From Amphibalanus amphitrite (taxonomy: Eukaryota > Arthropoda > Thecostraca > Balanomorpha > Balanidae), in contig NW_024882786.1 of assembly GCF_019059575.1 (NCBI RefSeq), positions 62,001 through 126,000 on the forward strand: a stretch of DNA of 64,000 bases. Direction: 5' to 3'. The notes under the pieces are model-generated. The model worked only from the letters and a program-made list of their open reading frames with translations, searched no databases and was not told where the DNA came from. The position numbers were made by a program, and so were the translations under genes. Of this stretch, positions 4,035 through 64,000 are shown piece after piece (position 1 is the first letter of the stretch; the number at the start of each line of letters is the position of its first letter).

Positions 4035-4194
4035 CTGGAACCGAAAGTGTCGCTCGTTCCTCTGGCCGAGCCACAGTTGCAGCGGCATCTCCAGAGCGGT
4101 AGCATTCCTCTCCGGGGTGTGGATGACGCGAGAGTGCACGTGGTGGCAGTCCACGTACAGGTCCAGCTGGTGTCCGGATACGGACACTGCCAGC
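4035..4194 (-). CDS. NELL exon 5: end of TSPN domain
   Basis: The exon is 160 bp, entered after TGTGTCCGCAG and left at a GTGAGT donor. It takes one base to complete an Arg codon and ends on a full codon (phase 0). It encodes LAVSVSGHQLDLYVDC, a strand pair with the conserved Cys of the NELL LamG-like fold, then the family signature LWLGQRNERHFRFQ. NAT in the ERNATALEM stretch is a possible N-glycosylation site. The upstream intron edge is rich in GTGTCCG repeats (4196-4310) that resemble the acceptor. Confidence 0.93.
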
Positions 4195-7100
4195 CTGCGG
4201 ACACAGGACGCGTCAGACACTCGCGGACAGTCCCGCCACGTGTCCGGCGCGTGGTCGGACACGCGGACACGGACAAGGTCACGTCACCAAGTGGCGGCGG
4301 ACACAGGACACTGGGGAGCGCACGTTATTGCTGATATGTTGCCGCTGTTGAGGTCCCTGCGGCGACCGTAACACGGCCAATTAGGCTGGTATGGTCACGT
4401 GACTGTCAGCGTTCCGGTCGCGTTTGTCACGCACGATCACCTCGATCTGGACAGCTGCCACCGCCAGCTGAGCTGCCGCCAACAGCTGCCAACCGGCGGC
4501 AGCTGGTGGCTGTTGCTAAGCTGTTGATATGCATGTATTTGTACTTCTGTTGTAACAGCACTACACATCATTATTGTCACATTATTGTCACAGTACCTAA
4601 AGTCTACCGTTGTACCGCACCGTAAGGATGACAGTGTCTGTGACATCTCAGGATTTCAGACTTCAGAGCAAACATTGCGTGACTTTGAACTACCATTGAA
4701 CCGTCGCAGGTGGTATGTGATATGCTTGTGCAAGTGACGCCATAGGAACATACGTAACTACCATCAAACGAAACCGGCCTTTCCATGACAGGCAGCCAAC
4801 AGGCATTGATGTCGTGGTGAATTGCAATGACATGTCACTTCGAATTGTGGGATTCCCGTCATGTGGGCACACGTTGATTGCACGTGCTTTCTTTGCACTC
4901 ATAACAAAGTGTTTCACAGGAAAGGACGGGTTGTTTTATGTGATCTTGACTGTAGAGGCTGCTCCAGCTTTAGGTTCCTATATGTCCTGATTGCGTGAAG
5001 CAGTTGATGCTTTCGTGTTCTACATGAAAAATAGTGAAAAGAAACAAGCTCCTGTTTTGGACAAAGCGCCACGAGGCGCTAAATGTAGGTACACCTTACT
5101 CTTTGAATTATGGTTAATGGTGTCTTGAGCGTGCCGTGTTTTATGTTTTGAATCCACAACTCGAAATACGATAAGATAAGCCTCAAAATGCGCAGTCAGT
5201 ATAGATCAAAACGAGCACTTGTGTCTTATCATCGCCCAAAACACCAACAGCGCCTGTCATAGAGCATAGCAGTGGTTTGATGTTTGCAATTCGCCTTCAA
5301 ATCGCCGAAATCAGCCGGCCCAGTGCAGCGGTGGCGGCTTTCGCGATAGCCGTGTGTGTTGGCGGCTCCGTTAGCGTGGCTTGGTTACCGCAATAGCGCT
5401 GGGGACAGTGCCTGTCGACCATCGACCGCTGAGCTCCACAAAGCGCAAACACTGAGGATCGGATTGGCGGACACGCACCAGCAGCCGGCTGACGGAACAG
5501 TCGCAGAACAGACGACACAGTCTGTCAGTTGTCGAACAGCAGACGGACCGGAAAGGATGGCCTGGCGAGGCTACTGAGAAAAAGACGCTGCTGATTGGAA
5601 AAACGAAAATAGTCAACAACAGACTTTTCTCTTTAGAAATGATATAGCAACTTTACATCTCATAAACAAATAATTACTGTAATTCATCTCATCCAGGTGC
5701 ATACTAAGCCTGGAAAAGCCGTGCCCAAAGGCAAATGCTCCAGGCAGACGGTTTCCGGTGCACCGTGTTTTCAGAAGCTTTAATTTGAGCATGAAAGGGT
5801 TCAATTTCGTCAGCGCATAACCGTATCTGATGACATTTATTTGCCCGACTTTGATGACGATTAAAACGGCGTGTTGATTCAATTTCATTAAATGAGGACT
5901 CGGGGCCCGTTTCTGGAACAAACATGCAACAACCCACAGTCGCAGCTCGAGGCGTCAGGTCGGGTAGCAAATCGAGTACCATTCTCAGACCAATGGTATA
6001 TTCAGAATGACTTGAAAGTAAGTAGTGAAAATAAAAGACTCATTCAAAATAGGCACGGTTTCACTGCCGAGCTGGGTGTTGCAATTAGGCGTTATAACGT
6101 CTTACATAACGTCCATCATAAAGCGCTTTTCACAAACTCAGAAAGCCATCATCGCCAGTAGAGCTACTCGTTAACATTTTCGTCCATCTGACAACTTGAC
6201 TGACAGAGGAGCCGCTTGATTCGTTCTCATTTGTCAGTGTGTGAGCCTCGGCAGAATAAAAGGCGGAAAGACGGAAGACCTGCGGCATTATATCTGGCGT
6301 GGAGGCTCAGAAAGGTGGGAGAGAATTGGGAAGAAAGGGGAAATGAGCTAGCATGTGTAGAGCAGCCAATGCAACCGTAGTATTAATGAATTAATATTAA
6401 AAATGCGTTAAAACGGTCAGCTCTGACCTGACCAGTTCATGTATCGTTAATGTTTATGTTCAACTACCATGTGTCGAAGCTGTTACCGCTCCGTGACCAC
6501 TAACTTGTGCCAGAGCTGTGTTTCCCAGTCTCTCCCCTCTCCTCATGCTGACTGACCTGTACCAGAGCTGTATTTCGGCCCAGTAGTTCCCTCTCCCATG
6601 TCTGACTGACCTGTGCCAGTGGTCGTCGGCCAGTCTGTAGCGGAACGACTCCATGTGCACGTCGGGCGGACCGCCTCCTCTGTCCGGATCCTGGCGCCGT
6701 CTGGTGTAGTGAAACCGGATCTCATCGGTACGACCCGACGACTGCACCTCCAGAAACCTGCCGGGGTGGGACGGAACAACATCATATCACTGCAGTGCGT
6801 AACATTTGTGTGAGATAAGGCAGAGGATACATGAACAGAGTAAATGTGTATTACAAACGAATTACAATTCTGAGCGAATAGGAAAATCCTTCCGTGATAC
6901 GCATTTACTGGGTTATGTATTTGGGGCCAAAGTCTCAAATAGCCCTCCCTTCCTCTTGTGAATAGTGATCCAGTCCGGCCCGTCTCCCCACGGCCGAGAG
7001 AAGCTGGGTGGCCGAGGGTGCGCCGTATCGGGCCACCCTGCTCCCACCCAACCCTTTGTTCCGTGCGCCCCGGATACGGGCGATTCGGGGGCCGAATTCC

Positions 7101-10100: not shown

Positions 10101-13100
10101 GTCGACCGGCTGCGTTGCGGCGTTTTATGCGCAGGGAGACGGTTCTTCACTCGAGCGCACTGATGATAAACTGAGTCCGTAGTAAACACCCCCGTCCCCA
10201 CGGGAGAGCCGTAGTAAGCTAGTGTAAACATGGCCGTTGCTATGCAAACCGAGGGCTCGAGGACAGTAGAAGACGCTGCGATATATATTCGAAGAGAAAA
10301 GGTGTTTATTCTTAGATACAGCAGCGATTCCATAATATTCAAATGTATTCAGTCAGGATCTGAAGTATGCAAATATTTTTACTCGAAATAAAGCAATTCT
10401 CCAAACTGAGGAAATATTTTCACACCAAGCAGTCAATTTCCATAATATTCAACTTTGTCGGAGCTCGCAAAACTCAGCTCCAACTTGGCATCACTAAAAA
10501 AGACCTTACCCCAAAAGCGCAAGCCATTTTGGCCGAACAGCTTCTTACAATTCCCTTGTCGTGACACCTTATAAAAGGAATGCCTATTATGCACCCAACA
10601 TGACCATGGGTAAACCATAAACGGTTCGGCCTTGGATGCGCTGTCCATTGTGCGGTATGCGTGTCCGCGTATTGATCCTCTGACTACGGCGTGGGTGGCG
10701 CGGATGGTGAGCAGAGCTCTAAATGAGTTGTGTCAATACTGTGTAGGCATTATGCGACTGGCATGCTTGCAAGTTGGTGTCGAAAGAGACGGGAGCGACC
10801 CCCACTGACCTGTTGGCGTCGAACGAGAAGGCGACGATGGTGCCGGCGTTCTGCGGCTGCTGCCGGACGCTGGCCAAAATGGTAAACTCGGCTGACGTGG
10901 TCAGCAGAGAGACGGCCCTCTCCAACACGGCGTCAGGCAGCCGCACTTGCCGCGTGTCACCTGGGGTCAGAGGTCAAAGGTCATGAGACAAAACACACAG
11001 CCGCACTTGCCGCGTGTCACCTGAGGCCAGAGGTCATGGGTCACCAATCGAAGGTCAGCAGTAAGGTAGCCCAAGGAACATGACGATACATTTGAAGCGT
11101 CAAGAATAAGCTCAGGGACGTGAATTATATAAAATGCATGACAGAAAGCCGAAGAAGAAGCGCCACGCCACGGACGATTTTCAGAACCCACAGAAAGGCT
11201 TCAGTCTGGAACCGCGGTCAGTTTGGTCTAAGTCGACTAACAAATAACATTACTAAAATATCCACGCATGGTGTCCCTCAGGACTGCATCACTGCTGTGA
11301 CAGTAAAGGTGGAGGTGACCTGATCCAGACTTGATTAGCTAAGGTCAGGAAGTGACGAACTTCACCGGTTGTCACCTGTGATCCGCGTGTGATTGAAGAG
11401 ATACCCTACCGTAAGGTCCCAACAGACCACCAGGGGTCATGGAGCTTTAGTAGAGGTCACAGAGGTCAACTGAGGCCACTGGTAACACCCAGGGTCAACA
11501 GAGCTAGTGAGTAGATGTGCCACCTTATAGAAGATGAAGTGCTGGACCCAACGATACAGGGAACAACACGCCTGAACCAAGTGACCTCGCCCCGCTATCA
11601 CAGTAAAGTTGGAACTGACAGCCACCCAGACGTCTGGCTAAATGAAATTAGTTTGGACGGGCCAGCCTGATGGCTATTCGCCGGATTGCAACATTAACAG
11701 AATGACAGCCACTGTGGCGTGAAATACGAATCAGTTCCACTACAAGAGTTGCAGAAATGTGATGAGTTGTTTTGAATGTTTGTAATTCTTTAAGAGTGCT
11801 CTTAAAAAAAGAACAACATCTTCACTCGATGCTTTTCGTTTGGCGATCATCTCATTTTAGACTCCCAGAGGTGGATAATTCGCACCTCATCATTGCCGAT
11901 TTACAGTGTTTTCCCGTCCCAGGTCATCATTTTCTTTCCGTGCTCCCCAGCTGAGGTGAGCTGTGACCGGCCTGGCACTGGCCGCCGATATCTGGACCGC
12001 TTTCCAGGTCATCGGGTAGGCTTCGGACCGCCACGCCCCTGCTGCTGTCAGCCGGCGGCCAAGTCTAGTCCCTCAGCGTCACTGTCCACCCCCTCCCCCT
12101 CCCCACACGCCCCGCCCCCGCCACCGCCGCCGCCCGCCGCGCCGCCGCCGTCGCTCGCGGTAGCTAATTGCCTCAGGCAGTCTCATCACGGGATCAATGG
12201 CACCGCGCCCGCCCCTGATTAATTAGCATGGTAAAAACCTGCTCTGTCGCCAGCCCGGGCGCCCGGGAAGGGTTCCTGAGCAGCGCCTGAGGTCACGGTC
12301 GGGTCAGGCCGGGGGGGGGGCTGAGGGGGGGAGGGTCGCCTCCCAGCTTCGAGAGCGCGGTCTCAGGTGGTGTAGGTGGCATTTATGGATGAGCCGCAGT
12401 ATGAATTGAATACGCGGAGACGCGATGAAATGAGGCAAGGCATGCCGTGACGACGCGCGATATGTTGCTTGGCGAAACAATTTTATTGAAGTTTTTCAGC
12501 CAATTACTTAAATTGCCAACAGTACAAGATATCTGGACTAAGAGCCAGGGTTGCACGGATCGTCCTGATGCCTACGGCTACAGCTAGTAGGTGCAGCTCG
12601 GCACCCAGAGCCCGTGGGAGGGGGCCAACATGGTATGCACCGTGGCGAGGCTACTATCGGTGAAGGAATGTCAATAAGTGGGGCCCACAAAACACCGGAT
12701 CTCACCGCGACAGCTAAACGTACTAACTGGGACAAGGATATGTCCCAAGATATGTCCCCAGGTCGGCACTCGGCATCCACGCACGGGGAATGAAATTTGC
12801 AGTCACTTATGAGGTGCGATTTTTTTATTCGATCCCTTCACGTCTTCCTGGCCATTTTGAAGTTCGGACTGGGCCGTATTAGACTCGTTGTCTTGCCTGA
12901 GTCCTTGGCTGTGGGACTAAGAGAAAGATGAGACCATTATTTTCCTTGAACAAACGGTACATAAATAAAGGCAGTCGGGATAGGAGAGGGCACGATAAAA
13001 ATGCGGAATGAAGCGACCAGCTGCAGAAGCAGCACGATGACGTGGAAGTTAGACGTTGACGTCATCCTGTCCATATCGTTCCTCATATCACGTGACTGTG

Positions 13101-16100
13101 CGTGCCACACTACCCATGGATATCGCGGTGGCGACCCTCTGCGGAAATCAATGTAGCCAGGCTATTACGGCGACGCTTAGCAGTACAATGCAGTGGCTGG
13201 GGGGAGGAGCCGTCCCATGCTGAATGACGTCAGCTGATCTGACTGGTGGAGTGGAATACTATATCCAACTTTGGGGAGGCTCAGGCTAGGGCCTAGGAAT
13301 TACACTTGGGCCATAATTCATCAATATATCAATACATAAAATAGGATTTACAAGTTTAATAAAAAATCTTATCATTGATTCAAGATAGGGTTATGTTTCA
13401 GTGTAATGAAATAGCAAAAACAGAGAAGATTAATTAGTCATGAGAAGTTATCTGCACAAAATGAATGCTAAATGATGATTATGCTAATACTTTGATCAAT
13501 TTAGATGGGATTCATAGTATGTTAGGGTAAAACGGGGAAGTGTAATGAATTTACAGGCATCCCTAGTCACGCATATTCATCATCATTATGTCAAACGTTC
13601 GGCTGCCTTCGCGCAGAGATCGCACATCGCAACCATCAGTCTTCTCGACACCACAGCAAGTTCCAAACAAATTACCCGTGCCCCTACTACGCTCCCTCCC
13701 GCTCAGCGCGGGATGAATCACCGGTCCCTCTCAGACCAGCCAGAGGTCAAGAGGAGACCCTGATATCACCAAGTGTCTCCTTGTCTCTCGGCACTGATAG
13801 ACGCCCTGCGCTATATCGCGTCTCTCGCAAATTTGTCTGATACGGCAATGAATCATGAACAAGGGCTGCTTCCGGCTGTGCCGGAAATGACGAACAGCGT
13901 GGTTGCTGGATCGATTTTTGGGCCAATGACGTCATCGGCGGGCCCTGACAGCCAGATTGGGTCTGTGGGACAGATGGGTGGCTGTTATCCCGTCAGAGTG
14001 CCATAGGGGAGGGAGTTGATTGGCGGCGGTCACCGCTTCGCAGGAAATGTATGTGTTGTGCCGTGAAACAAGTGGGAACATGTCCCCCGAGATGAGACAA
14101 ATTTCCACAATGAAAGCGGCAGCCTGTTTGGGCCAAACTTTACGATATTGGCAAAGTTCTGCAAGTTACGGACAGGGCAAGGTCAAGAGTGGAGAGTCTA
14201 CCCTAGCTTGTTGACCCGCGCGACGTCTGCCCCAGGGAATGGTGAAGTCAATCACATCACCGTCTCTGAAAGAAAGTAGGTACGACGACGGGACGGCAAC
14301 ACGATTCATCTCCGATGACTCCAGGAGATTGGATTAGAGGACAGTGGAGGGGAGGCTTCCTGGTATCCGGATCGATGGAGATATGAGCCACCTGTAATGA
14401 TCGTGCAGGTTCATGACCAGTTTGAACCAGACTTGGCTCACCCACCTGACAGACTGAGTGCCCGGGACTAACGACATAGACTCCTCTGACCAGTCTGTCC
14501 CGACTACTGGCGACTTGGCTAACCCACCTGACAGGCTGAGCGCTTGGGACAGACAGACAGTCTGAGTCTGTCCCAGACTAGTCTGACCCACCTGACAGGC
14601 TGAACGCCCGGGACTAACGACACAGACTCCTCTGACCAGTCTGTCCCCGACTAGTCTAACCTACCTGACAGGCTGAGCGCCCGGGACTAACGACACAGAC
14701 TCCTCTGGCCAGTCTGTCTCAGACTAGTCTGACCCACCTGACAGGCTGAGCGCCGGTGTGAAGCTGTGCGGCCCGGGGATGATGTTCACCCCCGGGTAGG
14801 TGGTGTTGAACAGCTGCAGACCCTCGATGAGGTCCACCTGGATTCGTGTCTCGGTGCTGATGCCACCGCCTACCACTGCAACAGAGAGAGAACAAACGTG
14901 ACTTCAGTTCACCCGGGCTTCTCAACAGAGCAGTTTGTATGAGCGACAAGTGGATGGGTAAAGCAGAGAGGGTGCAACAATGAGGCACAGTGCGACCATA
15001 ACCACGGCTCGGGCGGGGTCAAGCTCCGAGGAACAGTCCTGATGCATCGCATCAAGTTCGTGAATCTCTGCCAAACGTCGCCGATGAGGTAGGTAAACAG
15101 AGCGTTGCGATCAGTTTACGAGACAATGTCGCATTGTCTTTGAAATGCATGGATTCACATAGGTCATCAAATAAGTTTACATTTAGATAATAAAAAGTAA
15201 AAAAGTTGAAGCAAATATTTACCAAAATTAAGCCCATCACCGTTCAGCATCTTTGCATTGCACCAAAGCACATTTATTGTGACCTTTCCGAGAACCGGCG
15301 CAGGCCAACTGTACCGTTATTGGGTATGTTGGAGGATCGATCCAGTCGCAAATGATTGTACGAAAATGGCGAGGGACTGTGACAAGCCGGAAAATACGAC
15401 ACGCAGATACTGGCATAATGAATGTATTTAGATAATGAGGCGTAAATGTGGCCGATATAATTGTTCACACTATAAATCGTTGACCAAAATTACTATGACA
15501 AGGCGTAGAAAATTTATGCATGTATGCATATGTCGCTCTTATGGGTGGACCATATTTGTGTTTGACTAAGGGCAGGTCGATTTATTCCGAAGTGTTCGGC
15601 GCTGTACCGGATTGTCTCGGAGGACAGGTGGCGAGGTCGGCGTCCAGTGTATCTCCAGAGCTGACCGCCGCCGACCGCTCACACTGCCCTCCGCTCCCGA
15701 GGGTCAGCACCACTGCCAGAACCACCGCCACCGTCACCAGCACCACTACCAGCACCAGCAGGCCCGCGCAGCGCCGCGAGCGCTGCTGGCGCGCAGCCTC
15801 CGCGGCGCGCATCGCACTCGCGCGGCTCGGTGCCGGACACCGAGCTCACGAAAAGGCGCCGAGTACGCTCGCGGGTTGCCTTTCTCACGCACGAAGCGTC
15901 ACCGAAGCGTCACCGACGCGGCGTCACGGTGTCACGGACCGTCACGGAGCGACTGGCGCGGTGACGGCCGCGCAGCTCCGCTCAACAGCCCGCCGCTATC
16001 GCTGCCGATTCGCAGTTACTCAGATCAGGCGCGGCCGGTTTACTTTGTCGACTATCAGGTGGCCAGCGCGCCGATTGCGGGGCCGGCGCGAGCGGCGGCG

Positions 16101-31629: not shown

Positions 31630-32700
31630 ACCGCATGGCTCTTCGGACTATCATTCTCAGGGGCCTCATCTGCCTAGTTTGAATAGAAGGGCCTCTCAGA
31701 CAATCAGTCTCATGGGCCTCCTCTGGCTAGTATAAATAGAAGGGCCTGTTAGACCATCAATCCTAGGGGCCTCCTCTGGTTAGTATAAATAGAAGAGCCT
31801 CTCAGACCATTAATCTCAGGGGGCTCCTGTGGACAGTATAAATAAAAGGGCCTCTCAGACCGTCAGTCTCGGGGGCCTCCCTAGAAAAGTGTAAATGTGG
31901 ATAGAGGGCCCCCTCAGATTCATTAGGAGTGGACCTCTCTGACTATCAGTCTCAGGGGCCTCTTGTGGCTAGTGTGAATATAAGAGTCTCTCAGACCATC
32001 GGTCTCAGGGGCCTCTTCTGACTAGTGTGGATAGAGGGCCCTCCCAGACCACCGGTTTCAGGGGCCTCCAGTGGCCAGTTATGTGAACAGAAGGGCCTCA
32101 CAGCCATCAGCCTCGGGGCCTCTTCTGACTGGTGTGAATATGAGGGCCTCTCATACCATCAGTCTCAGGGGCCTCCTCTGCCTAGTGTGAATATAAGGGC
32201 TTCCCAGGCCATCAGTCTCAGGGGACTCTTCTGACTGGTGCCGGATTGAGGGACCTCCCAGACCGAAAGTTTTCGGGGTCTCCTGTGGCCCGTATGAATA
32301 GAAGGGCCTCTCAGTCCATCAATCTCATGGGCCTCTTCTGCCTGGTGTGATTATAAGGGCCTCTCAGGTATCAGTCTCAGGGGCCTCCTCTGACTACAGT
32401 GTAGATGGATAGGCATCCCAGACCATCAGTCTCAGGGGCCTCCTCTGACTAGTGAGGGTAGGGGGCCTCGGCTACACCGCCAGTGTCAGGGGCCTATTCT
32501 GACTAGTGAGGATGGAGGGGCCTCCCAGACCACCAGTCTCAGACCTCTGACTAGTGTGGATAGAGGGCCTCCCAGACCGCCAGTGTCAGGGGCCTCCCAA
32601 GACCAGTGTGGATATTGGGGCCTCCTCAGATCCATTAGGGCCTCTCAGGCCATCAGTCTCAGGGGCTTCGACTGACAAGTATGAACAGAGGGCCTCCTTG
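31630..32700. repeat. 53-bp GGGCCTCCTCTG minisatellite
   Basis: About 18-20 copies of a unit of roughly 53 bp. The unit combines GGGCCTCCTCTG-CTAGTGTGAATAG and AAGGGCCTCTCAGACC-ATCAGTCTCAG. It sits inside the hAT-like element, and its GGGCCTC core recurs in the second hAT-like element at 46579-47085. Confidence 0.9.
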
Positions 32701-36720: not shown

Positions 36721-36839
36721 TGAGCCACACCGTCTCTCCACACGCTGTCTGTGCCGGTTGGAGCCCCGCTAAGCCAGATGGACCATCAGCGTCCCGTCCG
36801 GTCTCTGCTGCACGCGATCTCCTCCCCTCCTCTGACCTG

Positions 36840-36985
36840 CTGCACCCTCCCCTCCTCTGACCGGCCACCCTCCCCTCCTCTGACCGGCCACCCTCCCTCC
36901 TCTGACCGGCCACCCTCCCCTCCTCTGACCGGCCACCCTCCCCTCCTCTGACCGGCCACCCTCCCCTCCTCTGACCCGCCACCCC
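36840..36985. repeat. 23-bp minisatellite CCTCCCCTCCTCTGACCGGCCA
   Basis: Six to seven nearly identical copies of a 23-bp unit (CCTCCCCTCCTCTGACCGGCCAC). High copy identity suggests recent expansion. The minus-strand open frame it creates (GGWPVRGGE periodicity) is not a gene. Confidence 0.9.
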
Positions 36986-37432
36986 CCCTCCCCATCATCC
37001 CACAGCCTCCCCACCCCACCCCACCCCAAAAGCTGACCGCAGACGGATCACTGCCCCCTCTCTGCCCGTCTCCATACACGGCATACGTAGACATACCTCA
37101 TACGCATTACGCATACCAACAGTATGACAATGTAACGACGAGCGACGAGCAGCACAATGACGGAAAAAACGTTGCTTCGGGACAGAATTAGTTCTTCGCA
37201 TGATAGCTTCAAGAATAATGCTAGTGTTTACTTATTGCGGCGATTGCGTAGTTCGTACTACGTGCGAGTTGTACAGGCAGTGGTAGGTATGCATATTTTA
37301 GAAATTTGATGTTTCCGGTGCAGCCATTATGCGAAAAAACACCTATTTCACTTATGTGTGACCGTGTTAGATTCCAAATAAATTCAGGATGGAGAGCGGC
37401 GTACCCTCTAACCTCTCCTCGTCCTTCTCCAG

Positions 37433-46087: not shown

Positions 46088-46577
46088 TACAGTCACGATC
46101 TCTCTTATTGACCTGTGTATGAATCGGCGGCGCGAAGCGCCGCAAAAATTTGCAAAAAAAAAAGTTGTCAAAACACAGCTCTAAAACACAAATATTACAA
46201 CCTTTTTAGCATGCTAGTACAAGCCGGAGTTCCTTCACAGTACACATATGAATTCCGATTCAATTTGACACGGTTGGTGTTATTACAGTCACTGTTATTT
46301 CTCTCTTATTGATTGGTGTATAAATCGGCGGCGCGAAGCGCCGAGAAAATTTGCAAAAGAATGTGTCGAAACACAGCTCCAAAACACAAATTTTACCACC
46401 CTTTTAGCATTGCAGTACAAGCCGGAGTTCCTTTACAGCACACATATGAATTCTGATTCAATTTGACACGGTTGGTTTATGTAATTACAGTCAAGATTTC
46501 GTATTGACCTGTACGTATGTACATAAATCGGCGGCGCGAAGCGCCGCGAAAAATTTGCAAAAACATTTGTCAAAACA
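46088..46577. repeat. Three tandem copies of a 202-bp repeat with a GC palindrome
   Basis: The phrase AATCGGCGGCGCGAAGCGCC starts at 46122, 46323 and 46526. Each unit contains the hairpin-forming CGGCGCGAAGCGCCG, an AAAATTTGCAAAA tract and TACAAGCCGGAGTTCC. The third unit is truncated where the next minisatellite starts. Confidence 0.92.
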
Positions 46578-46578
46578 C

Positions 46579-47085
46579 AGAGGGGGCCTCCTCTCTACAG
46601 AGGACCACCGATCTCTACTGCGGGCCTCCTCTTTTCACAGGGCCTCTTAACTACAGAAGCTACAGGGCCTCCTCTCTACAGAGGGCTTCCTCTCTACTGA
46701 GGGTCTCTCCCTTTAAGAGGGCCTCCTTTACAGAGGGCCTCCTCTCTTCAAAGAGCCAGAGGACCTCATCTCTGCAAAGGGCCTCCTCTCTTCAGAGGGC
46801 CTCTTCTCTACAGAGGGCCTCCTTTCTTCAGAGGGCCTCTTCTCTACAGCGGGTCTCCACTCTTCAGAGGGCCTTCTGCATTCAGGCGGTCTCCTTTCCA
46901 CAGAGGGCCTCCTCTCTACACAGGGCCTCCTCTCTACATAGAGCCTTCTCTCTACAGCAGGTCTCCTCTCTACAGAGGGCCTCCTCTTTAAAGGGGTCTC
47001 CTCTCTACAGGGGGCCTCCTCTCTACTGAGGGCCTCCTTTCTACAGAGGACCTCCTCTACAGAGGGCCTCCTACCTACTGAGGAG
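46579..47085. repeat. 18-19-bp GAGGGCCTCCTCTCTACA minisatellite
   Basis: About 25 copies of AGAGGGCCTCCTCTCTAC, each itself nearly palindromic (GAGGGCCTC, GAGGCCC). The open frame across it (LQRASSLQRAS) is a periodicity artefact. It shares its core with the 53-bp array in the other hAT-like element. Confidence 0.93.
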
Positions 47086-47661
47086 TCAGAGGGGCCCTAG
47101 CGGTCAGACACAGACACTAGCGGTTATTCACTGGAGGCCCCAGGAAGTAAGAAGGGCCCTAGCTGTCAGGCTGGTCAGAGGGCCCTGAATGTCCTGACGT
47201 GATTTTTGGGATTCCCGTGAATTTCTTTCGCCTCAGACGTGATTTTGACCTGCCAGGGCCCAGGGGCACTAAAAATAAAACAAACAAAATAAAAAATGAA
47301 AATAGGACATCACCAAAATTAAGTGACCGAAATCCGTTGAGTTTTTAATTTTGCGTATAGGTAGGGGCACCACGAATTAAATTCATGACCATCCCCTTGG
47401 AGTTTTCCTGGATCATCCCCTGGTGCTCGCACGGTTGAGACAAAAACGAGTAAGATTCTGGTCTTCAATACGCCTTTTCACGCAACACGATCCAGAAAAA
47501 CAAAGGTATTAGCTCAGAAGTGTTTGACAGGTGATTTTGAGCATGCAAGACGGCGTCTATAGCGCATTTAGGTCTTCGGCTTTTGGGGGGGGTCAAATGA
47601 CCCTCTCAGACCTTTTGGGGGGGGTCATGACCCCGTGGACCCCCCCCAGGATCCGCCAGTG

Positions 47662-54110: not shown

Positions 54111-55319
54111 TCTAGAAGCTTAGATATTCACGAAAAACTTGTTGAACCTGCCAAAGTACCTGCCAGCTTGCTGTATCACCTGCTACTTGGTAATGTACTG
54201 AAAACTTGCTAATGTACTGAAAACCTGCCAAAGTACTTGGTATTTACTTGCCTAAATACCGCAAAGAACTTGTTCCTTTCCGACGTTTAAATCAGACGTC
54301 TTTAGTCGATCAAAGACTTTGCGAATTTGCCTTGATCTCAGATAATTTTGATTTGTTCCAATGAATTATTTGTAATTTGAATTATACTTGTTCCCAATTT
54401 GTATTTTGTTTCACCTACCTATCATTTCTAACTTGTTTTAGCGTCCTACCTATTAAGCGATTACACATACGTAGAGAGAGCCGGTGGGTGGTTATAATGC
54501 AATACCCTGCACGGTGAACAGCTTGCGAGTTTTGCAGCGGTGCGATTGCTGGGGCTTATCGCTGACAGAAAAGGGTAAATACAGTAAATACAGATGGCTG
54601 TGTTGGATCCCTTTGCTTTTGCCCAACATTCAGCGTTGGAATTGTGGCTTTACCGTCCCTCTTATCAAAGTTATCTAACTTTTTGTAGCTTCGTCAGGTT
54701 AGACACGACGCGCGTGACCTCTGGCGGCCGCTGGCGGAACTACCGCGCACGGCCCGCACACGGGCCTGGCGGCCGCCAGTGGAACTACTGCGCAGGTGGC
54801 AGCACCTACCCGTGGAGAAGCGGCTGGCAATCGGCCGCCCCACTCCCCACCCCGCCCCCACCCAGCTGGCCGCCAGACCGTGGGAACGACTCGGCTCAGC
54901 GCTGCCGGCCGCTGGACGGGGAAACCCCGCCCCGCCGCCCGCCGCCCAACACACTGCCGCCGGGCCGGCCGGTGGAATTTTCCAGCCGTCTCTCCGGAAC
55001 GGCGGCACCCCGCTCATCTTCGCACGCGCATTCAGCGGCGGCTTGTCGATTTTTCGAGTGTCGGCTGCCGATCTCCCGAGAGCCGGCCACCTGTCAGCCG
55101 CCGCTCGGCTCCGTGTTAAGCATATGGGGACGGCGAATTTCTCCCGGAGGGAAGCACCTCGCTCACAAAAGCACGTGAATCAGCCGCATTCCTGTGTGGC
55201 GCGCAATGCTGAAGAGATATGTGTTTCCGCGGGTATCTCGCAGGCCCTAAGAGAAAAAGCTCGCTGCAAAAACTCAGCGCTTCAAAAAACCCGCAATCCT
55301 ACTCAAATGGATATTTAAA
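54016..55319 (+). repeat. Array unit 1 (1304-bp class, long block)
   Basis: The LINE-like start is followed by a degenerate minisatellite (54150-54250), an AT-rich segment, then the long block (from about 54430) with TATAATGCAATACCCTGCACGG and a GC-rich interior. It is nearly identical to unit 6. Confidence 0.9.
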
Positions 55320-56342
55320 CAAGATATCTTGGCTCGCTCCGCGTCGCTTTGGCAATCAAAGTATGAGGGAGAAAATTTGGGATCGATTGGTGCTCGTCCC
55401 GTGTTAATCGGACGTCTAGAAGCTTAGATATTCACGAAAAACTTGTTGAACTTGCCAAAGTACTTGGTACTTGCTTGGTACTTGCCAAAGTACTCGGTAC
55501 TTGCCAAAGTACTTGGTACTTGCTTGGTATTTGCATAAGTACTTGGTATTTGCCAAAGTACTTGGTACTTGCTTGGTATTTCCATAAGTACTTGGTACTT
55601 GCTTGGTACTCGTAAAAGTACTTGGTACTTGCTTGGTACTTGGTACTTGCTTGGTACTTGCGAAAGTACTTGGTACTTGCACTCGCCCCCCCGTTCCCCC
55701 GACTCTACTCCCACACCTACCCCCTCGGGATAATTCCGGGTTCGTCGGGTAGGAAAACTTGCCACTCTACTCCCCCCCCCCCCACACACACACAGAGCCA
55801 TTTGGTATCGATCGGTGTTTATCCCGTGTCAATCGGTCGTCAATAAGCCGAGATATGCACGGCGAATTATTTCAATCGGCGTCGATCAGAATCTTCAGAA
55901 CGGAGGGACCCACACTCATTTCTGGCCGTATCTCACTTTTCCGAGATGTACGTCAAACTACGTATTTAAAACTACATATTCTACAGCCGAATCTTCAAAC
56001 TGGGGGTACCTCAGACCGTGGGAACGACTCGGCTCAGCACTGCCGCACGCGCATTCAGCGGCGGCTTGTCGATTTTTCGAGTGTCGGCTGCCGATCTCCC
56101 GAGAGCCGGCCACCTGTCAGCCGCCGCTCGGCTCTGTGTTAAGCATATGGGGACGGCGAATTTCTCCCGGAGGGAAGCACCTCGCTCACAAAAGCACGTG
56201 AATCAGCCGCATTCCTGTGTGGCGCGCAATGCTGAAGAGATATGTGTTTCCGCGGGTATCTCGCAAGCCCTAACAGGAAAAGCTCGCTGCAAAAACTGAG
56301 CGTTTCAAAAAACCCGAAATCCTACTCAAATGGATATTTAAA
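55320..56342 (+). repeat. Array unit 2 (short block)
   Basis: Start motif, AAGTACTTGG minisatellite (55455-55680), C-rich stretch, echo block (55800-55945), then the short block entered by GTACGTCAAACTACG. Confidence 0.9.
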
Positions 56343-57844
56343 CAAGATATCTTGGCTCGCTCCGCGTCGCTTTGGCCATAAAAAGATTCGGGAGAAAATT
56401 TGGGATCGAATGGTGTTTTTCCGGTGACGATCGGACGTCTAGAAGCTTCGATATTGGCGAAAAACTTGCTGAACTTGCAAAAGTACTAAGTACTTGCTTG
56501 GTACTTGCCAAAGTACTCGGTACTTGCCAAAGTACTTGGTACTTGCTTGGTATTTGCATAAGTACTCGGTATTTGCCAAAGTACTTGGTACTTGCTTGGT
56601 ATTTCCATAAGTACTTGGTACTTGCTTGGTACTTGTAAAAGTACTTGGTACTTGCTTGGTACTTGCGAAAGTACTTGGTACTTGCACTCGCCCCCCCCGT
56701 TCCCCCGACTCTACTCCCACAACTACCCCCTCGGGATAATTCCGGGTTCGTCGGGTAGGAAAACTTGCCACTCTACTCCCCCCCCCCCACAGAGCCATTT
56801 GGTATCGATCGGTGTTTATCCCGTGTCAATCGGTCGTCAATAAGCCGAGATATGCACGGCGAATTATTTCAATCGGCGTCGATCAGAATCTTCAGAACGG
56901 AGGGACCCACACTCATTTCTGGCCGTATCTCACTTTTCCGAGATATCATTTCTCACTTGCTTTTCGCGTCCTACCTATTAAGCGATTACACATACGTTGA
57001 GGGAGCCGGTGGGTGGTTATAATGCAATACCCTGCACGGTGAACAGCTTGCGAGTTTTGCAGCGGTGCGATTGCTGGGGCTTATCGCTGACTGAAAAGGG
57101 TAAATACAGTAAATACAGATGGCTGTGTTGGATCCCTTTGCTTTTGCCCAACATTCAGCGTTGGAATTGTGGCTTTACCGTCCCTCTTATTAAAGTTATC
57201 TAACTTTTTGTAGCTTCGTCAGGTTAGACACGACGCGCGCGACCTCTGTCGGCCGCTGGCGGAACTACCGCGCACGGCCCGCACACGGGCCTGGCGGCCG
57301 CCAGTGGAACTACTGCGCAGGTGGCAGCACCTGCCCGTGGAGAAGCGGCTGGACATCGGCCGCCCCACTCCCCACCCCGCCCCCACCCAGCTGGCCGCCA
57401 GACCGTGGGAACGACTCGGCTGAGCGCTGCCGGCCGCTGGACGGGGAAACCCCGCCCCGCCGCCCGCCGCCCGACACACTGCCGCCGGGCCGGCCGGTGG
57501 AATTTTCCAGCCGTCTCTCCGGAACGGCGGTACCCCGTTCATCTTCGCACGCGCATTCAGCGGCGGCTTGTCGATTTTTCGAGTGTCGGCTGCCGATCTC
57601 CCGCGAGCCGGCCACCTGTCAGCCGCCGCTCGGCTCTGTGTTAAGCGTATGGGGACGGCGAATTTCTCCCGGAGGGAAGCACCTCGCTCACAAAAGCACG
57701 TGAATCAGCCGCATTCCTGTGTGGCGCGCAATGCTGAAGAGATATGTGTTTCCGCGGGTATCTCGCAGGCCCTAACAGGAAAAGCTCGCTGCAAAAACTC
57801 AGCGTTTCAAAAAACCCGCAATCCTACTCAAATGGTATATTAAA
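56343..57844 (+). repeat. Array unit 3 (1502-bp class, long block)
   Basis: Has both the minisatellite/echo blocks and the long block. Its uninterrupted GTGTTAAGCGTATGGGG (near 57640) is the empty equivalent of the TTAA insertion site in unit 7. Confidence 0.9.
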
Positions 57845-59800
57845 CAAGATATCTTGGCTCGCTCCGCGTCGCGTTGGCCATAAAATGATTAAGGAGAAAA
57901 TTTGGGATCGAATGGTGTTTTTCCGGTGACGATCGGACGTCTAGAAGCTTCGATATTGGCGAAAAACTTGCTGAACTTGCAAAAGTACTTGGTACTTGCC
58001 AAAGTACTCGGTACTTGCCAAAGTACTTGGTACTTGCTTGGTATTTGCATAAGTACTCGGTATTTGCCAAAGTACTTGGTACTTGCTTGGTATTTGCATA
58101 AGTACTTGGTACTTGCTTGGTACTTGTAAAAGTACTTGGTACTTGCTTGGTACTTGCGAAAGTACTTTGTACTTGCTTGGTACTTGTACTCGCCCCCCCC
58201 CCCTTGTTCCCCCGACTCTACTCCCACACCTACCCCCTCGGGATAATTCCGGGTTCGTCGGGTAGGAAAACTTGCCACTCTACTCCCCCCCCCCCCCACA
58301 GAGCCATTTGGTATCGATCGGTGTTTATCCCGTGTCAATCGGTCGTCAATAAGCCGAGATATGCACGGCGAATTATTTCAATCGGCGTCGATCAGAATCT
58401 TCAGAACGGAGGGACCCACACTCATTTCTGGCCGTATCTCACTTTTCCGAGATGTACGTCAAACTACGTATTTAAAACTACATATTCTACAGCCGAATCT
58501 TCAAACTGGGGGTACCTCAGACCGTGGGAACGACTCGGCTCAGCACTGCCGCACGCGCATTCAGCGGCGGCTTGTCGATTTTTCGAGTGTCGGCTGCCGA
58601 TCTCCCGAGAGCCGGCCACCTGTCAGCCGCCGCTCGGCTCTGTGTTAAGCATATGGGGACGGCGAATTTCTCCCGGAGGGAAGCACCTCGCTCACAAAAA
58701 CACGTGAATCAGCCGCATTCCTGTGTGGCGCGCAATGCTGAAGAGATATGTGTTTCCGCGGGTATCTCGCAAGCCCTAACAGGAAAAGCTCGCTGCAAAA
58801 ACTGAGCGTTTCAAAAAACCCGAAATCCTACTCAAATGGATATTTAAACAAGATATCTTGGCTCGCTCCGCGTCGCTTTGGCCATAAAAAGATTCGGGAG
58901 AAAATTTGGGATCGAATGGTGTTTTTCCGGTGACGATCGGACGTCTAGAAGCTTCGATATTGGCGAAAAACTTGCTGAAGTTGCAAAAGTACTTGGTACT
59001 TGCTTGGTACTTGCCAAAGTACTCGGTACTTGCCAAAGTACTTGGTACTTGCTTGGTATTTCCATAAGTACTTGGTACTTGCTTGGTACTTGTAAAAGTA
59101 CTTGGTACTTGCTTGGTACTTGCGAAAGTACTTGGTACTTGCACTCGACCCCCCCCCCGTTCCCCCGACTCTACTCCCACACCTACCCCCTCGGGATAAT
59201 TCCGGGTTCGTCGGGTAGGAAAACTTGCCACTCTACTCCCCCCCCCCCCACAGAGCCATTTGGTATCGATCGGTGTTGATCCCGTGTCAATCGGTCGTCA
59301 ATAAGCCGAGATATGCACGGCGAATTATTTCAATCGGCGTCGATCAGAATCTTCAGAACGGAGGGACCCACACTCATTTCTGGCCGTATCTCACTTTTCC
59401 GAGATGTACGTCAAACTACGTATTTAAAACTACATATTCTACAGCCGAATCTTCAAACTGGGGGTACCTCAGACCGTGGGAACGACTCGGCTCAGCACTG
59501 CCGCACGCGCATTCAGCGGCGGCTTGTCGATTTTTCGAGTGTCGGCTGCCGATCTCCCGAGAGCCGGCCACCTGTCAGCCGCCGCTCGGCTCTGTGTTAA
59601 GCATATGGGGACGGCGAATTTCTCCCGGAGGGAAGCACCTCGCTCACAAAAGCACGTGAATCAGCCGCATTCCTGTGAGGCGCGCAATGTTGAAGAGATA
59701 TGTGTTTCCGCGGGTATCTCGCAGGCCCTAACAGAAAAAGCTCGCTGCAAAAACTGAGCGTTTCAAAAAACCCGCAATCCTACTCAAATGGATATTTAAA
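57845..59800 (+). repeat. Array units 4 and 5 (short block)
   Basis: Unit 4 runs 57845-58848 and unit 5 runs 58849-59800. They differ mainly in minisatellite copy number and C-run length. The short block looks like a deletion derivative of the long block: GAACGACTCGGCTCAGC continues directly to CACGCGCATTCAGCGG, about 125 bp being absent. Confidence 0.88.
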
Positions 59801-61104
59801 CAAGATATCTTGGCTCGCTCCGCGTCGCTTTGGCAATCAAAGTATGAGGGAGAAAATTTGGGATCGATTGGTGTTCGTCCCGTGTTAATCGGACGTCTAG
59901 AAGCTTAGATATTCACGAAAAACTTGTTGAACCTGCCAAAGTACCTGCCAGCTTGCTGTATCACCTGCTACTTGGTAATGTACTGAAAACTTGCTAATGT
60001 ACTGAAAACCTGCCAAAGTACTTGGTATTTACTTGCCTAAATACCGCAAAGAACTTGTTCCTTTCCGACGTTTAAATCAGACGTCTTTAGTCGATCAAAG
60101 ACTTTGCGAATTTGCCTTGATCTCAGATAATTTTGATTTGTTCCAATGAATTATTTGTAATTTGAATTATACTTGTTCCCAATTTGTATTTTGTTTCACC
60201 TACCTATCATTTCTAACTTGTTTTAGCGTCCTACCTATTAAGCGATTACACATACGTAGAGAGAGCCGGTGGGTGGTTATAATGCAATACCCTGCACGGT
60301 GAACAGCTTGCGAGTTTTACAGCGGTGCGATTGCTGGGGCTTATCGCTGACAGAAAAGGGTAAATACAGTAAATACAGATGGCTGTGTTGGATCCCTTTG
60401 CTTTTGCCCAACATTCAGCGTTGGAATTGTGGCTTTACCGTCCCTCTTATCAAAGTTTTCTAACTTTTTGTAGCTTCGTCAGGTTAGACACGACGCGCGT
60501 GACCTCTGGCGGCCGCTGGCGGAACTACCGCGCACGGCCCGCACACGGGCCTGGCGGCCGCCAGTGGAACTACTGCGCAGGTGGCAGCACCTACCCGTGG
60601 AGAAGCGGCTGGCAATCGGCCGCCCCACTCCCCACCCCGCCCCCACCCAGCTGGCCGCCAGACCGTGGGAACGACTCGGCTCAGCGCTGCCGGCCGCTGG
60701 ACGGGGAAACCCCGCCCCGCCGCCCGCCGCCCAACACACTGCCGCCGGGCCGGCCGGTGGAATTTTCCAGCCGTCTCTCCGGAACGGCGGCACCCCGCTC
60801 ATCTTCGCACGCGCATTCAGCGGCGGCTTGTCGATTTTTCGAGTGTCGGCTGCCGATCTCCCGAGAGCCGGCCACCTGTCAGCCGCCGCTCGGCTCCGTG
60901 TTAAGCATATGGGGACGGCGAATTTCTCCCGGAGGGAAGCACCTCGCTCACAAAAGCACGTGAATCAGCCGCATTCCTGTGTGGCGCGCAATGCTGAAGA
61001 GATATGTGTTTCCGCGGGTATCTCGCAGGCCCTAAGAGAAAAAGCTCGCTGCAAAAACTCAGCGCTTCAAAAAACCCGCAATCCTACTCAAATGGATATT
61101 TAAA
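59801..61104 (+). repeat. Array unit 6 (copy of unit 1)
   Basis: The same 1304-bp length as unit 1 at an offset of 5785 bp, with only a few substitutions seen. The AT-rich segment and degenerate minisatellite of unit 1 are both present. Confidence 0.92.
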
Positions 61105-63790
61105 CAAGATATCTTGGCTCGCTCCGCGTCGCTTTGGCCATAAAAAGATTCGGGAGAAAATTTGGGATCGAATGGTGTTTTTCCGGTGACGATCGGACGT
61201 CTAGAAGCTTCGATATTGGCGAAAAACTTGCTGAACTTGCAAAAGTACTAAGTACTTGCTTGGTACTTGCCAAAGTACTCGGTACTTGCCAAAGTACTTG
61301 GTACTTGCTTGGTATTTGCATAAGTACTCGGTATTTGCCAAAGTACTTGGTACTTGCTTGGTATTTCCATAAGTACTTGGTACTTGCTTGGTACTTGTAA
61401 AAGTACTTGGTACTTGCTTGGTACTTGCGAAAGTACTTGGTACTTGCACTCGCCCCCCCCGTTCCCCCGACTCTACTCCCACAACTACCCCCTCGGGATA
61501 ATTCCGGGTTCGTCGGGTAGGAAAACTTGCCACTCTACTCCCCCCCCCCACAGAGCCATTTGGTATCGATCGGTGTTTATCCCGTGTCAATCGGTCGTCA
61601 ATAAGCCGAGATATGCACGGCGAATTATTTCAATCGGCGTCGATCAGAATCTTCAGAACGGAGGGACCCACACTCATTTCTGGCCGTATCTCACTTTTCC
61701 GAGATATCATTTCTCACTTGCTTTTCGCGTCCTACCTATTAAGCGATTACACATACGTTGAGGGAGCCGGTGGGTGGTTATAATGCAATACCCTGCACGG
61801 TGAACAGCTTGCGAGTTTTGCAGCGGTGCGATTGCTGGGGCTTATCGCTGACTGAAAAGGGTAAATACAGTAAATACAGATGGCTGTGTTGGATCCCTTT
61901 GCTTTTGCCCAACATTCAGCGTTGGAATTGTGGCTTTACCGTCCCTCTTATTAAAGTTATCTAACTTTTTGTAGCTTCGTCAGGTTAGACACGACGCGCG
62001 CGACCTCTGTCGGCCGCTGGCGGAACTACCGCGCACGGCCCGCACACGGGCCTGGCGGCCGCCAGTGGAACTACTGCGCAGGTGGCAGCACCTGCCCGTG
62101 GAGAAGCGGCTGGACATCGGCCGCCCCACTCCCCACCCCGCCCCCACCCAGCTGGCCGCCAGACCGTGGGAACGACTCGGCTGAGCGCTGCCGGCCGCTG
62201 GACGGGGAAACCCCGCCCCGCCGCCCGCCGCCCGACACACTGCCGCCGGGCCGGCCGGTGGAATTTTCCAGCCGTCTCTCCGGAACGGCGGTACCCCGTT
62301 CATCTTCGCACGCGCATTCAGCGGCGGCTTGTCGATTTTTCGAGTGTCGGCTGCCGATCTCCCGCGAGCCGGCCACCTGTCAGCCGCCGCTCGGCTCTGT
62401 GTTAACCTTCGCCCTGGTGGGGGGGGGCCATTTTGGCCCCCCCCTGTGGTTTTTCAGCGATAACTCAGAAACCACTTGAGTTAGCGCCCTGAAACTTTGT
62501 ATAGCTGTTTATTCAACATTTTTACATCATGTCCTTTTTTTGGGGGTTCGGGTCAGGTCAGGTCAGGTCACAAGGTCACCAAAACTGACACCACCTCTAA
62601 AAAAGTTCAAAGCTCTCTCAAAGGCACAGCTTTTATCCGATCGATGTAAAATTTACAGTACTTGAAGATGTCACCCAGCTCTACAAAATGGCTATCTCGG
62701 ATTTTTTATAAATGTGACCTAAGGTCAGGTCAGGTCATCGCTGCTCCCCATTATAAGTCAATGGGAGAATCGAAAAGTAGTTGTTTTTCAGCTAAATCGG
62801 GCGTGATTGTTCCTATATTTCGTTATTGAAGTGTCTTGGGTCAGCAAATCACAGCCCATGTGAAACCATTTGCTTGTGACCTCGCTGAGGTCACGCTAGG
62901 TCATCTCCCTGGTCACCAGAGGTCACCAGCGGTTTTTCTGCACTTACTTGTTATTGAATAGAGATAGAGACTCCGTTCGACGTTTATCGTGTTTGTCTCG
63001 TCAATGCGGATCGAATGATATGCAGCATGACCTATTTCGGTAAGGTCATGACCTTGACCTGAGGTCAAATTTTCAAAATGACCTTTCGAGGTCAAACTAT
63101 ATATCATTCGACGCGTCTCGACGAGCCAAGCACGATGGTGCATGAATCGTTTCTCTATTTTCTCGTGAATGCATGCTATAGTTAAAAACATTTTCAACGA
63201 AATTTGCCAAGTTGACCTTGCATGACCTCTGTAGGCCAAACCGTTGAGCTGAGGTCAAATCTGACGAACCTTGGCGAAAGAGCTTGAAAAGAGCTATCGA
63301 TTGCTTTTTTCCGCGGCTCTCTAGCTCTTCTAGTTTCCGAGCTACAGCGGAATATGTCCGGCAACACCGAAAACACTGAAATTTGACCTATGATGACCTC
63401 TAGCGACCTCAATATTGACCTTAGCGAAAAAATGACCGAAATACTTTCGAACGTACTTGTTATGGGCTTTCGTTTGCTTTTTTCCGCGTCTTCCTAGCCC
63501 TCTTCGTTTTCGAGTTAGACGGGGGGGGTCATTTTGGCCCCCCCCCACCAGGGCGAAGGTGGCTCAGACCCACACCAGGGCGCGGGTTAAGCGTATGGGG
63601 ACGGCGAATTTCTCCCGGAGGGAAGCACCTCGCTCACAAAAGCACGTGAATCAGCCGCATTCCTGTGTGGCGCGCAATGCTGAAGAGATATGTGTTTCCG
63701 CGGGTATCTCGCAGGCCCTAACAGGAAAAGCTCGCTGCAAAAACTCAGCGTTTCAAAAAACCCGCAATCCTACTCAAATGGTATATTAAA
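61105..63790 (+). repeat. Array unit 7 (copy of unit 3 with an insertion)
   Basis: Matches unit 3 through the long block and is split at 62402 by the TTAA-flanked element. Without the element and one TTAA it is 1501 bp, against 1502 bp for unit 3. Confidence 0.92.
62406..63586. mobile_element. piggyBac-like TTAA insertion, 1.18 kb, AGGTCA-rich
   Basis: Flanked by TTAA at 62402-62405 and 63587-63590; other array units carry a single TTAA here. The left end is CCTTCGCCCTGGTGGGGG; the inverse complement of the right end is CCCGCGCCCTGGTGTGGG. TTAA duplication with CC-starting ends is typical of piggyBac-like elements (Kolobok also uses TTAA). A longer inverted repeat (GGCCATTTTGGCCCCCCC) runs from 62406 to an internal point at 63559. 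No transposase; the interior has many AGGTCA/TGACCT motifs. Confidence 0.9.
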
Positions 63791-64000
63791 CAAGATATCT
63801 TGGCTCGCTCCGCGTCGCTTTGGCCATAAAAAGTTTCGGGAGAAAATTTGGAATCGAATGGTGTTTTTCCGGTGACGATCGGACGTCTAGAAGCTTCGAT
63901 ATTGGCGAAAAACTTGCTGAACTTGCAAAAGTACTTGGTACTTGCTTGGTACTTGCGAAAGTACTCGGTACTTGCCAAAATACTTGGTACTTGCTTGGTA

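Follow-up and report, generated by a model that had tools for sequence, protein, structure and literature searches.

An arthropod NELL gene with a mirage minisatellite that repeats its exon 2 splice donor

Introns can be gained by tandem duplication of AG/GT proto-splice sites, and such cases have reportedly been found in Drosophila. The array described here shares with them the tandem copying of an AG/GT boundary, although it only enlarges an existing intron: it terminates coding exon 2 of a NELL gene in a 64,000-nucleotide stretch of an arthropod genome (contig C1289, positions 62001-126000; hereafter the window) and repeats the end of that exon together with its splice donor. The closest described systems are the mirage minisatellites of amphioxus, a kind of repeat that has seldom been described, known from Adh3 and from the globin genes BflGb6 and BflGb9, where splicing is reported to be undisturbed (PMC3087553, PMC3902484); TnC and PGBD5 were added to the group in one of them (PMC3902484). 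Internal tandem repeats, some of them at exon-intron boundaries, are also present in human segmental-duplication genes, where minisatellite expansion across a boundary can introduce cryptic splice sites and give rise to new introns (PMC2812944). The human cases concern recent paralogs and half of the repeats are coding, whereas here the added copies appear to be intronic and no new intron is apparent. Like the amphioxus mirages, which are reported to be harmless to splicing there, the NELL array has a repeat unit that spans the exon-intron boundary, and it belongs to the mirage minisatellite kind. What is new is the presence and density of such arrays in an arthropod, as the amphioxus mirages lie in cephalochordate genes. 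No arthropod mirage minisatellite was recognised from titles and abstracts, which is weak evidence, since the subscription literature is mostly outside the coverage of the search. The host is an arthropod and not a cephalochordate: among 705 candidates, at least 150 scored matches to the cuticle domain PF00379 were found, and this domain marks arthropods.

The Pfam domains of the gene are laminin G followed by VWC and EGF, and its best match is NELL. Spliced exons 2-5 match NELL2 in PDB at 1.1e-28, and the joined VWC/EGF part matches it at 1.3e-50, which bears out the NELL identity claimed by an earlier reading of the sequence (the original prediction). Searched alone against PDB and Pfam, the 47-residue exon 2 returned nothing; it was the longer spliced protein that led to NELL2. 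When exon 2, which ends ..GGCGCTCAGCCTGTCAG/GTGGGT (a slash marks a splice boundary), is joined to exon 3 at the first copy of the donor, the junction aligns to NELL2 without a gap; therefore, copy 1 is the real coding donor, and the exon ends where it had been predicted to end. Additional NELL exons are located beyond the window, at lower contig coordinates. The exons placed within it are as follows (nt, nucleotides).

14738-14875, minus strand: NELL coding exon 2, 138 nt, phase 1 in and phase 1 out, ending ..PALSLS G/ (NELL2 alignment)
14732-14737, minus strand: real donor, copy 1, CAG/GTGGGT (exon 2-exon 3 junction ungapped against NELL2)
10961-14737, minus strand: intron 2, 3,777 nt
10810-10960, minus strand: exon 3, 151 nt, DTRQVRLPDAV..SAEFTILASVRQQ (NELL2 alignment)
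6611-6757, minus strand: NELL exon 4
4035-4194, minus strand: NELL exon 5, ..LWLGQRNERHFRFQ

The array itself consists of five tandem units on the minus strand (14408-14756), with the G of the donor at 14737, 14664, 14591, 14527 and 14445. The copies differ from the last 17 exonic bases by at most two changes each, and the AG/GT signal is kept in all five, as CAG/GTGGGT in four and CAG/GTAGGT in one. Tandem Repeats Finder (TRF) reports the array as 14427-14754 (period 146, score 353) and 14565-14754 (period 73, score 338); the far end of unit 5 at 14408 was set by us, the TRF array ending at 14427. The units are listed below.

14684-14756, minus strand: unit 1 (73 nt), contains the real exon end and donor
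14611-14683, minus strand: unit 2 (73 nt), decoy donor at 14664, CAG/GTAGGT
14547-14610, minus strand: unit 3 (64 nt), decoy donor at 14591, CAG/GTGGGT
14465-14546, minus strand: unit 4 (82 nt), decoy donor at 14527, CAG/GTGGGT
14408-14464, minus strand: unit 5, partial and most diverged, decoy donor at 14445, CAG/GTGGGT

The original prediction had described units of 63-85 bp that amplify the exon end and donor five times, and this agrees with steps of 73, 73, 64 and 82 and with four decoys following the real donor; its boundaries near 14666, 14591, 14528 and 14444 were right within 2 bases. Repeats are hard to assemble, and one amphioxus mirage is said to be aberrantly assembled in its draft (PMC3087553), so a single donor segment falsely expanded by the assembler had to be considered. 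However, the units are only 75-92% identical to one another (they differ by 8-25%) and units 3, 4 and 5 carry private indels; thus, they are not one sequence repeated by the assembler. Arrays of the same kind also occur on other contigs and on paired contigs, and we regard an assembly artefact as very unlikely. No relatives of the array were found elsewhere: exact matches to CTCAGCCTGTCAGGTNGGT number three in the whole 807.6-Mb assembly, always within the array, and a 461-base query comprising exon 2 and the array matched one place (very common words being skipped by the search). Searches of the assembly found neither a dispersed family nor a second haplotype of this locus, which was found once. 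By eye, three other minisatellites in the window (31646-32635, 36821-36991 and 46664-47083, with periods of 53, 23 and 18 bp) have a CTCCTCT(GAC)-like core resembling that of the array spacer.

Among the five donors, only copy 1 keeps the reading frame. Joined to exon 3, each of the four decoys yields ..SLSGGSD*, with three extra residues and the identical stop.

14724-14726, minus strand: in-frame TAG, 11 nt past donor 1, truncating all four extended isoforms (translation of joined exons)

Because every later donor reads into this TAG, extended isoforms would be truncated, and the suggestion that isoforms with added segments are made is not supported at the level of protein. The copies might instead act as 22-nt microexons, entered through an acceptor-like TTAG and giving new isoforms or introns. 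By eye, TCGTTAG is found just before the exon-like part in copies 2, 3 and 5, and the amphioxus authors propose intron gain from mirages (PMC3087553). However, the stretch before each TTAG is purine-rich, the implied introns would be only about 51 nt long and copy 4 has no TTAG (all judged by eye, unscored); such a role is very improbable.

What could single out the real donor among its copies? Its consensus score is 5.94 against 5.94-6.06 for the decoys, and its U1 duplex energy is -11.4 against -11.4 to -12.2 (under the scoring matrix and U1 sequence used). Of the 241 GT dinucleotides in the 3.8-kb intron 2, only the four decoys score as high as the real donor or higher. The 9-mer of the real donor is identical in three of the four decoys and the remaining one scores slightly higher, so that the local site indeed cannot decide, as had been claimed. 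RNA structure was rejected as the selector, as the real donor is no more accessible than the decoys in predicted folds: the probability of being unpaired is 0.07 for the real donor and 0.29, 0.26, 0.02 and 0.10 for the decoys in a fold of the whole region, and 0.21 versus 0.26, 0.08, 0.25 and 0.44 in local 150-nt folds. Copy 1 would be distinguished by its position adjoining the exon, which exon definition could read. Splice choice by more than the local site is the ordinary rule under exon definition. Thus, the view that splice choice here has to draw on more than the local site is correct in that the 9-mer is indecisive, but overstated, given ordinary exon definition and the undisturbed splicing reported for amphioxus.

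The best explanation, and in our judgement a probable one, is near-neutral tandem duplication across the exon edge with continued use of the exon-proximal donor. A tandem duplication with one end in the exon and the other in the intron would have copied about 19 of the last exon bases, the donor and about 54 intron bases, and slippage or unequal exchange may later have brought the number to five, if this was the order of events. The added copies are intronic because they are positioned downstream of the first donor. The exon-proximal donor would most likely be spliced through exon definition, to which a 138-nt exon and a pyrimidine-rich acceptor probably contribute, and the decoys would be removed along with the intron; occasional splicing at a decoy would give an early-stop transcript that is expected to be degraded. 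Near-neutrality is what we infer for the array as a whole, and column counts give no clear sign of selection maintaining the decoys: in the splice block 4 of 20 columns vary, compared with 20 of 53 in the remainder (p=0.17), and conservation is just as high in 5 of 23 blocks of equal length. Some observations weigh against this explanation. Pairwise differences are fewer in the splice block (16/200) than elsewhere in the units (91/434), which alone would fit some constraint. The decoy at 14664 slightly outscores the real donor and the decoy at 14445 forms the strongest U1 duplex; for this reason, leakage to decoys is plausible. Use of copy 1 in vivo is read from frame and homology, and the excess of copied donors in the second of two counts given below (11/67 versus 1/75) hints at more than random duplication.

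The donor of exon 2 is one of several duplicated edges in this gene, and copied edges also occur in other genes; the original prediction had mentioned only the exon 2 donor. The acceptor of intron 2 and the first 23 nt of exon 3 are duplicated as well (window 10938-11043), so that both ends of intron 2 carry edge copies; use of the decoy acceptor (11020) would add 60 nt with an in-frame TGA.

10938-10983, minus strand: true acceptor copy, CTGACCCCAG/GTGACACGCGGCAAGTGCGGCTG
10998-11043, minus strand: decoy acceptor copy, 60 bp upstream (91% identity over 46 nt)

The VWC2 donor, GAG/GTCAGT, is followed within 210 nt by eight further copies (L009, C1289:37646-37857, minus strand), with an in-frame TGA 5 nt past the donor, and 55 nt upstream of the VWC3 acceptor lies a copy that matches it at 25 of 30 positions. 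Weaker cases fall below the cut of 22/30: the exon 4 donor has a copy 54 nt downstream (4/22 mismatched, 20/30 in the longer test) and the VWC4 donor has one at 21/30. In total, 2 of 14 donors and 2 of 13 acceptors reach the cut, where the donor count includes the exon 2 donor that prompted the study and some NELL exons are unplaced. For comparison, sampling the NELL introns every 5 bases gave 59 and 78 of 8474 positions in the two directions, and matched pseudo-sites more than 480 nt from exons gave 0/39 and 0/36 for donors on the two strands and 0/199 and 2/203 for acceptors.

We extended the search to 37 of the 38 other listed VWC matches and, counting second contigs, to the best 30 of the 98 Sushi matches listed. 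A score of at least 22 was reached there by eight edges, all in Sushi loci, and all eight were inspected. One donor (L040) has 12 further copies at no more than 5/22 mismatches (11 of the 12 at exactly 5), and acceptors are copied upstream in L032, L033 and L034, the first two of which fail the test with 22-24-nt windows. The richest case is a Sushi-domain gene on contig C477, which has a near-identical second contig, C2240 (L037/L038, L045/L046, L047/L050 and L059/L060); its exon edges were placed from domain ends, without homology across the junctions. Six of its seven tested donors have copies on C477 and five of seven on C2240, with copy number differing at five of seven, but these counts rely on an exon 5 edge moved 29 nt by hand, and at the script's edge there is no copy and they become 5/7, 4/7 and 4/7. 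Total copies at donors 1-7 are 2, 3, 1, 2, 6, 2 and 2 on C477 and 1, 6, 1, 3, 3, 2 and 3 on C2240, where two additional copies accompany the acceptor of exon 7 as well. These six copied donors in one gene, together with the effect on both ends of one NELL intron, set the arthropod arrays apart from the amphioxus mirages. Exons on the two contigs are 95-98% identical, a divergence close to the allelic differences of 2.6-3.9% reported for one barnacle gene (PMC8270832). The two contigs are likely to represent alleles rather than recent paralogs, judging from these sequences. Many domain matches come as pairs on two contigs, and therefore the assembly appears to hold many loci twice. In the C477 intron after 191339 (L037), the spacer separating the two donor copies exceeds its counterpart on the paired contig by about 210 nt and includes a palindromic segment, which gives it the look of a small mobile element.

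The Sushi gene also bears on another explanation of the NELL array, namely that it is a working poison-donor cassette, with U1 divided among five near-equal sites, a fixed fraction of transcripts spliced at decoys and destroyed, and the level of NELL output adjusted through copy number. On the one hand, the five donors are near equal, each decoy leads to a stop, and the duplicated acceptor of intron 2 likewise leads to a stop from its decoy. On the other hand, reading on into random intron sequence would in any case be expected to meet a stop early, many extensions in the Sushi gene have no stop in the added segment (that of C477 exon 4 adds 72 nt in frame) and the decoy block is not significantly more conserved by columns. 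We consider such a cassette improbable.

Whether donors seed arrays more often than chance was addressed by two counts, which disagree. The first, with 30-nt windows and one contig per pair, found no significant excess for donors (3/29 versus 12/98 pseudo-donors, p=1) or acceptors (2/41 versus 4/339, p=0.13), against a background of 371 and 400 of 8247 positions that consists partly of arrays attached to unlisted exons. The second used 22-24-nt windows in 25 sequences, with second contigs and L057 dropped and one donor re-placed. It gave 11 copied donors of 67 (10 without the re-placed edge). Among pseudo-donors distant from exons, copies were present at 1 of 75 in sense orientation (p=0.0015) and at 9 of 127 in antisense orientation (p=0.05); when the exon 2 donor that prompted the study is left out, the figure for donors is 10/66 (p=0.012 against pooled controls). 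Acceptors showed no excess in this count (2/62 versus 29/516 and 3/339 in controls). Nine of the 11 copied donors are in two genes, one of the 11 is the weak exon 4 case and one is the re-placed edge; 21 of the 25 sequences have no copy at any edge. TRF arrays (period at least 15, score at least 80) cover 5 of 67 donors but none of the 62 acceptors, compared with 3.2% of intronic bases; their cover is about 8-9% within 250 nt downstream of donors and drops to about 2.5% at a distance of 500-600 nt. The evidence that donors seed arrays beyond chance is therefore only suggestive. Extra U1 sites may aid exon definition or protect long transcripts from premature polyadenylation, and donor arrays could be mildly favoured if sites downstream of exon 2 acted in this way. 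Copies at donors and not at acceptors, and the fall in array cover away from donors, would fit such a benefit; however, the dependence on two genes and a re-placed edge, the lack of excess with longer matches and the many sequences without any edge copy speak against it, and we find it doubtful. A broader proposal, which we put forward tentatively as a possibility, is that in the arthropod lineage either tandem duplication starts preferentially at transcribed donors or arrays of donors are advantageous as platforms for U1, in many genes, with high allelic turnover and with a genome-wide choice among near-identical sites.

Other repeats and frames were observed nearby. The region 54185-64000 of the window contains near-identical open frames and 19-, 30- and 49-bp arrays several kb apart (54588-55178 and 60373-60963; 57194-57703 and 61955-62479), which by eye resembles segmental or element-driven duplication. 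At 46508-47096, an 18-bp array is open from stop to stop for more than 120 codons on both strands (173 residues on the plus strand and 122 on the minus strand). Elsewhere on the contig, an 890-codon open frame (L006, C1289:7183-9852, minus strand) presumably resembles the RNA polymerase I factor TAF1B.

The arrays described here extend mirage minisatellites from lancelets to arthropods. They place five to nine similar donors in a row within a single pre-mRNA (at L040 as many as thirteen, though more diverged), and such natural rows amount to an in vivo test of exon definition among equal sites, and the paired contigs with unequal copy number offer ready allelic comparisons. If it is true that donors seed arrays, splice-site sequence or transcription would be linked to tandem duplication, and this would be a source of steady intron growth and gain.
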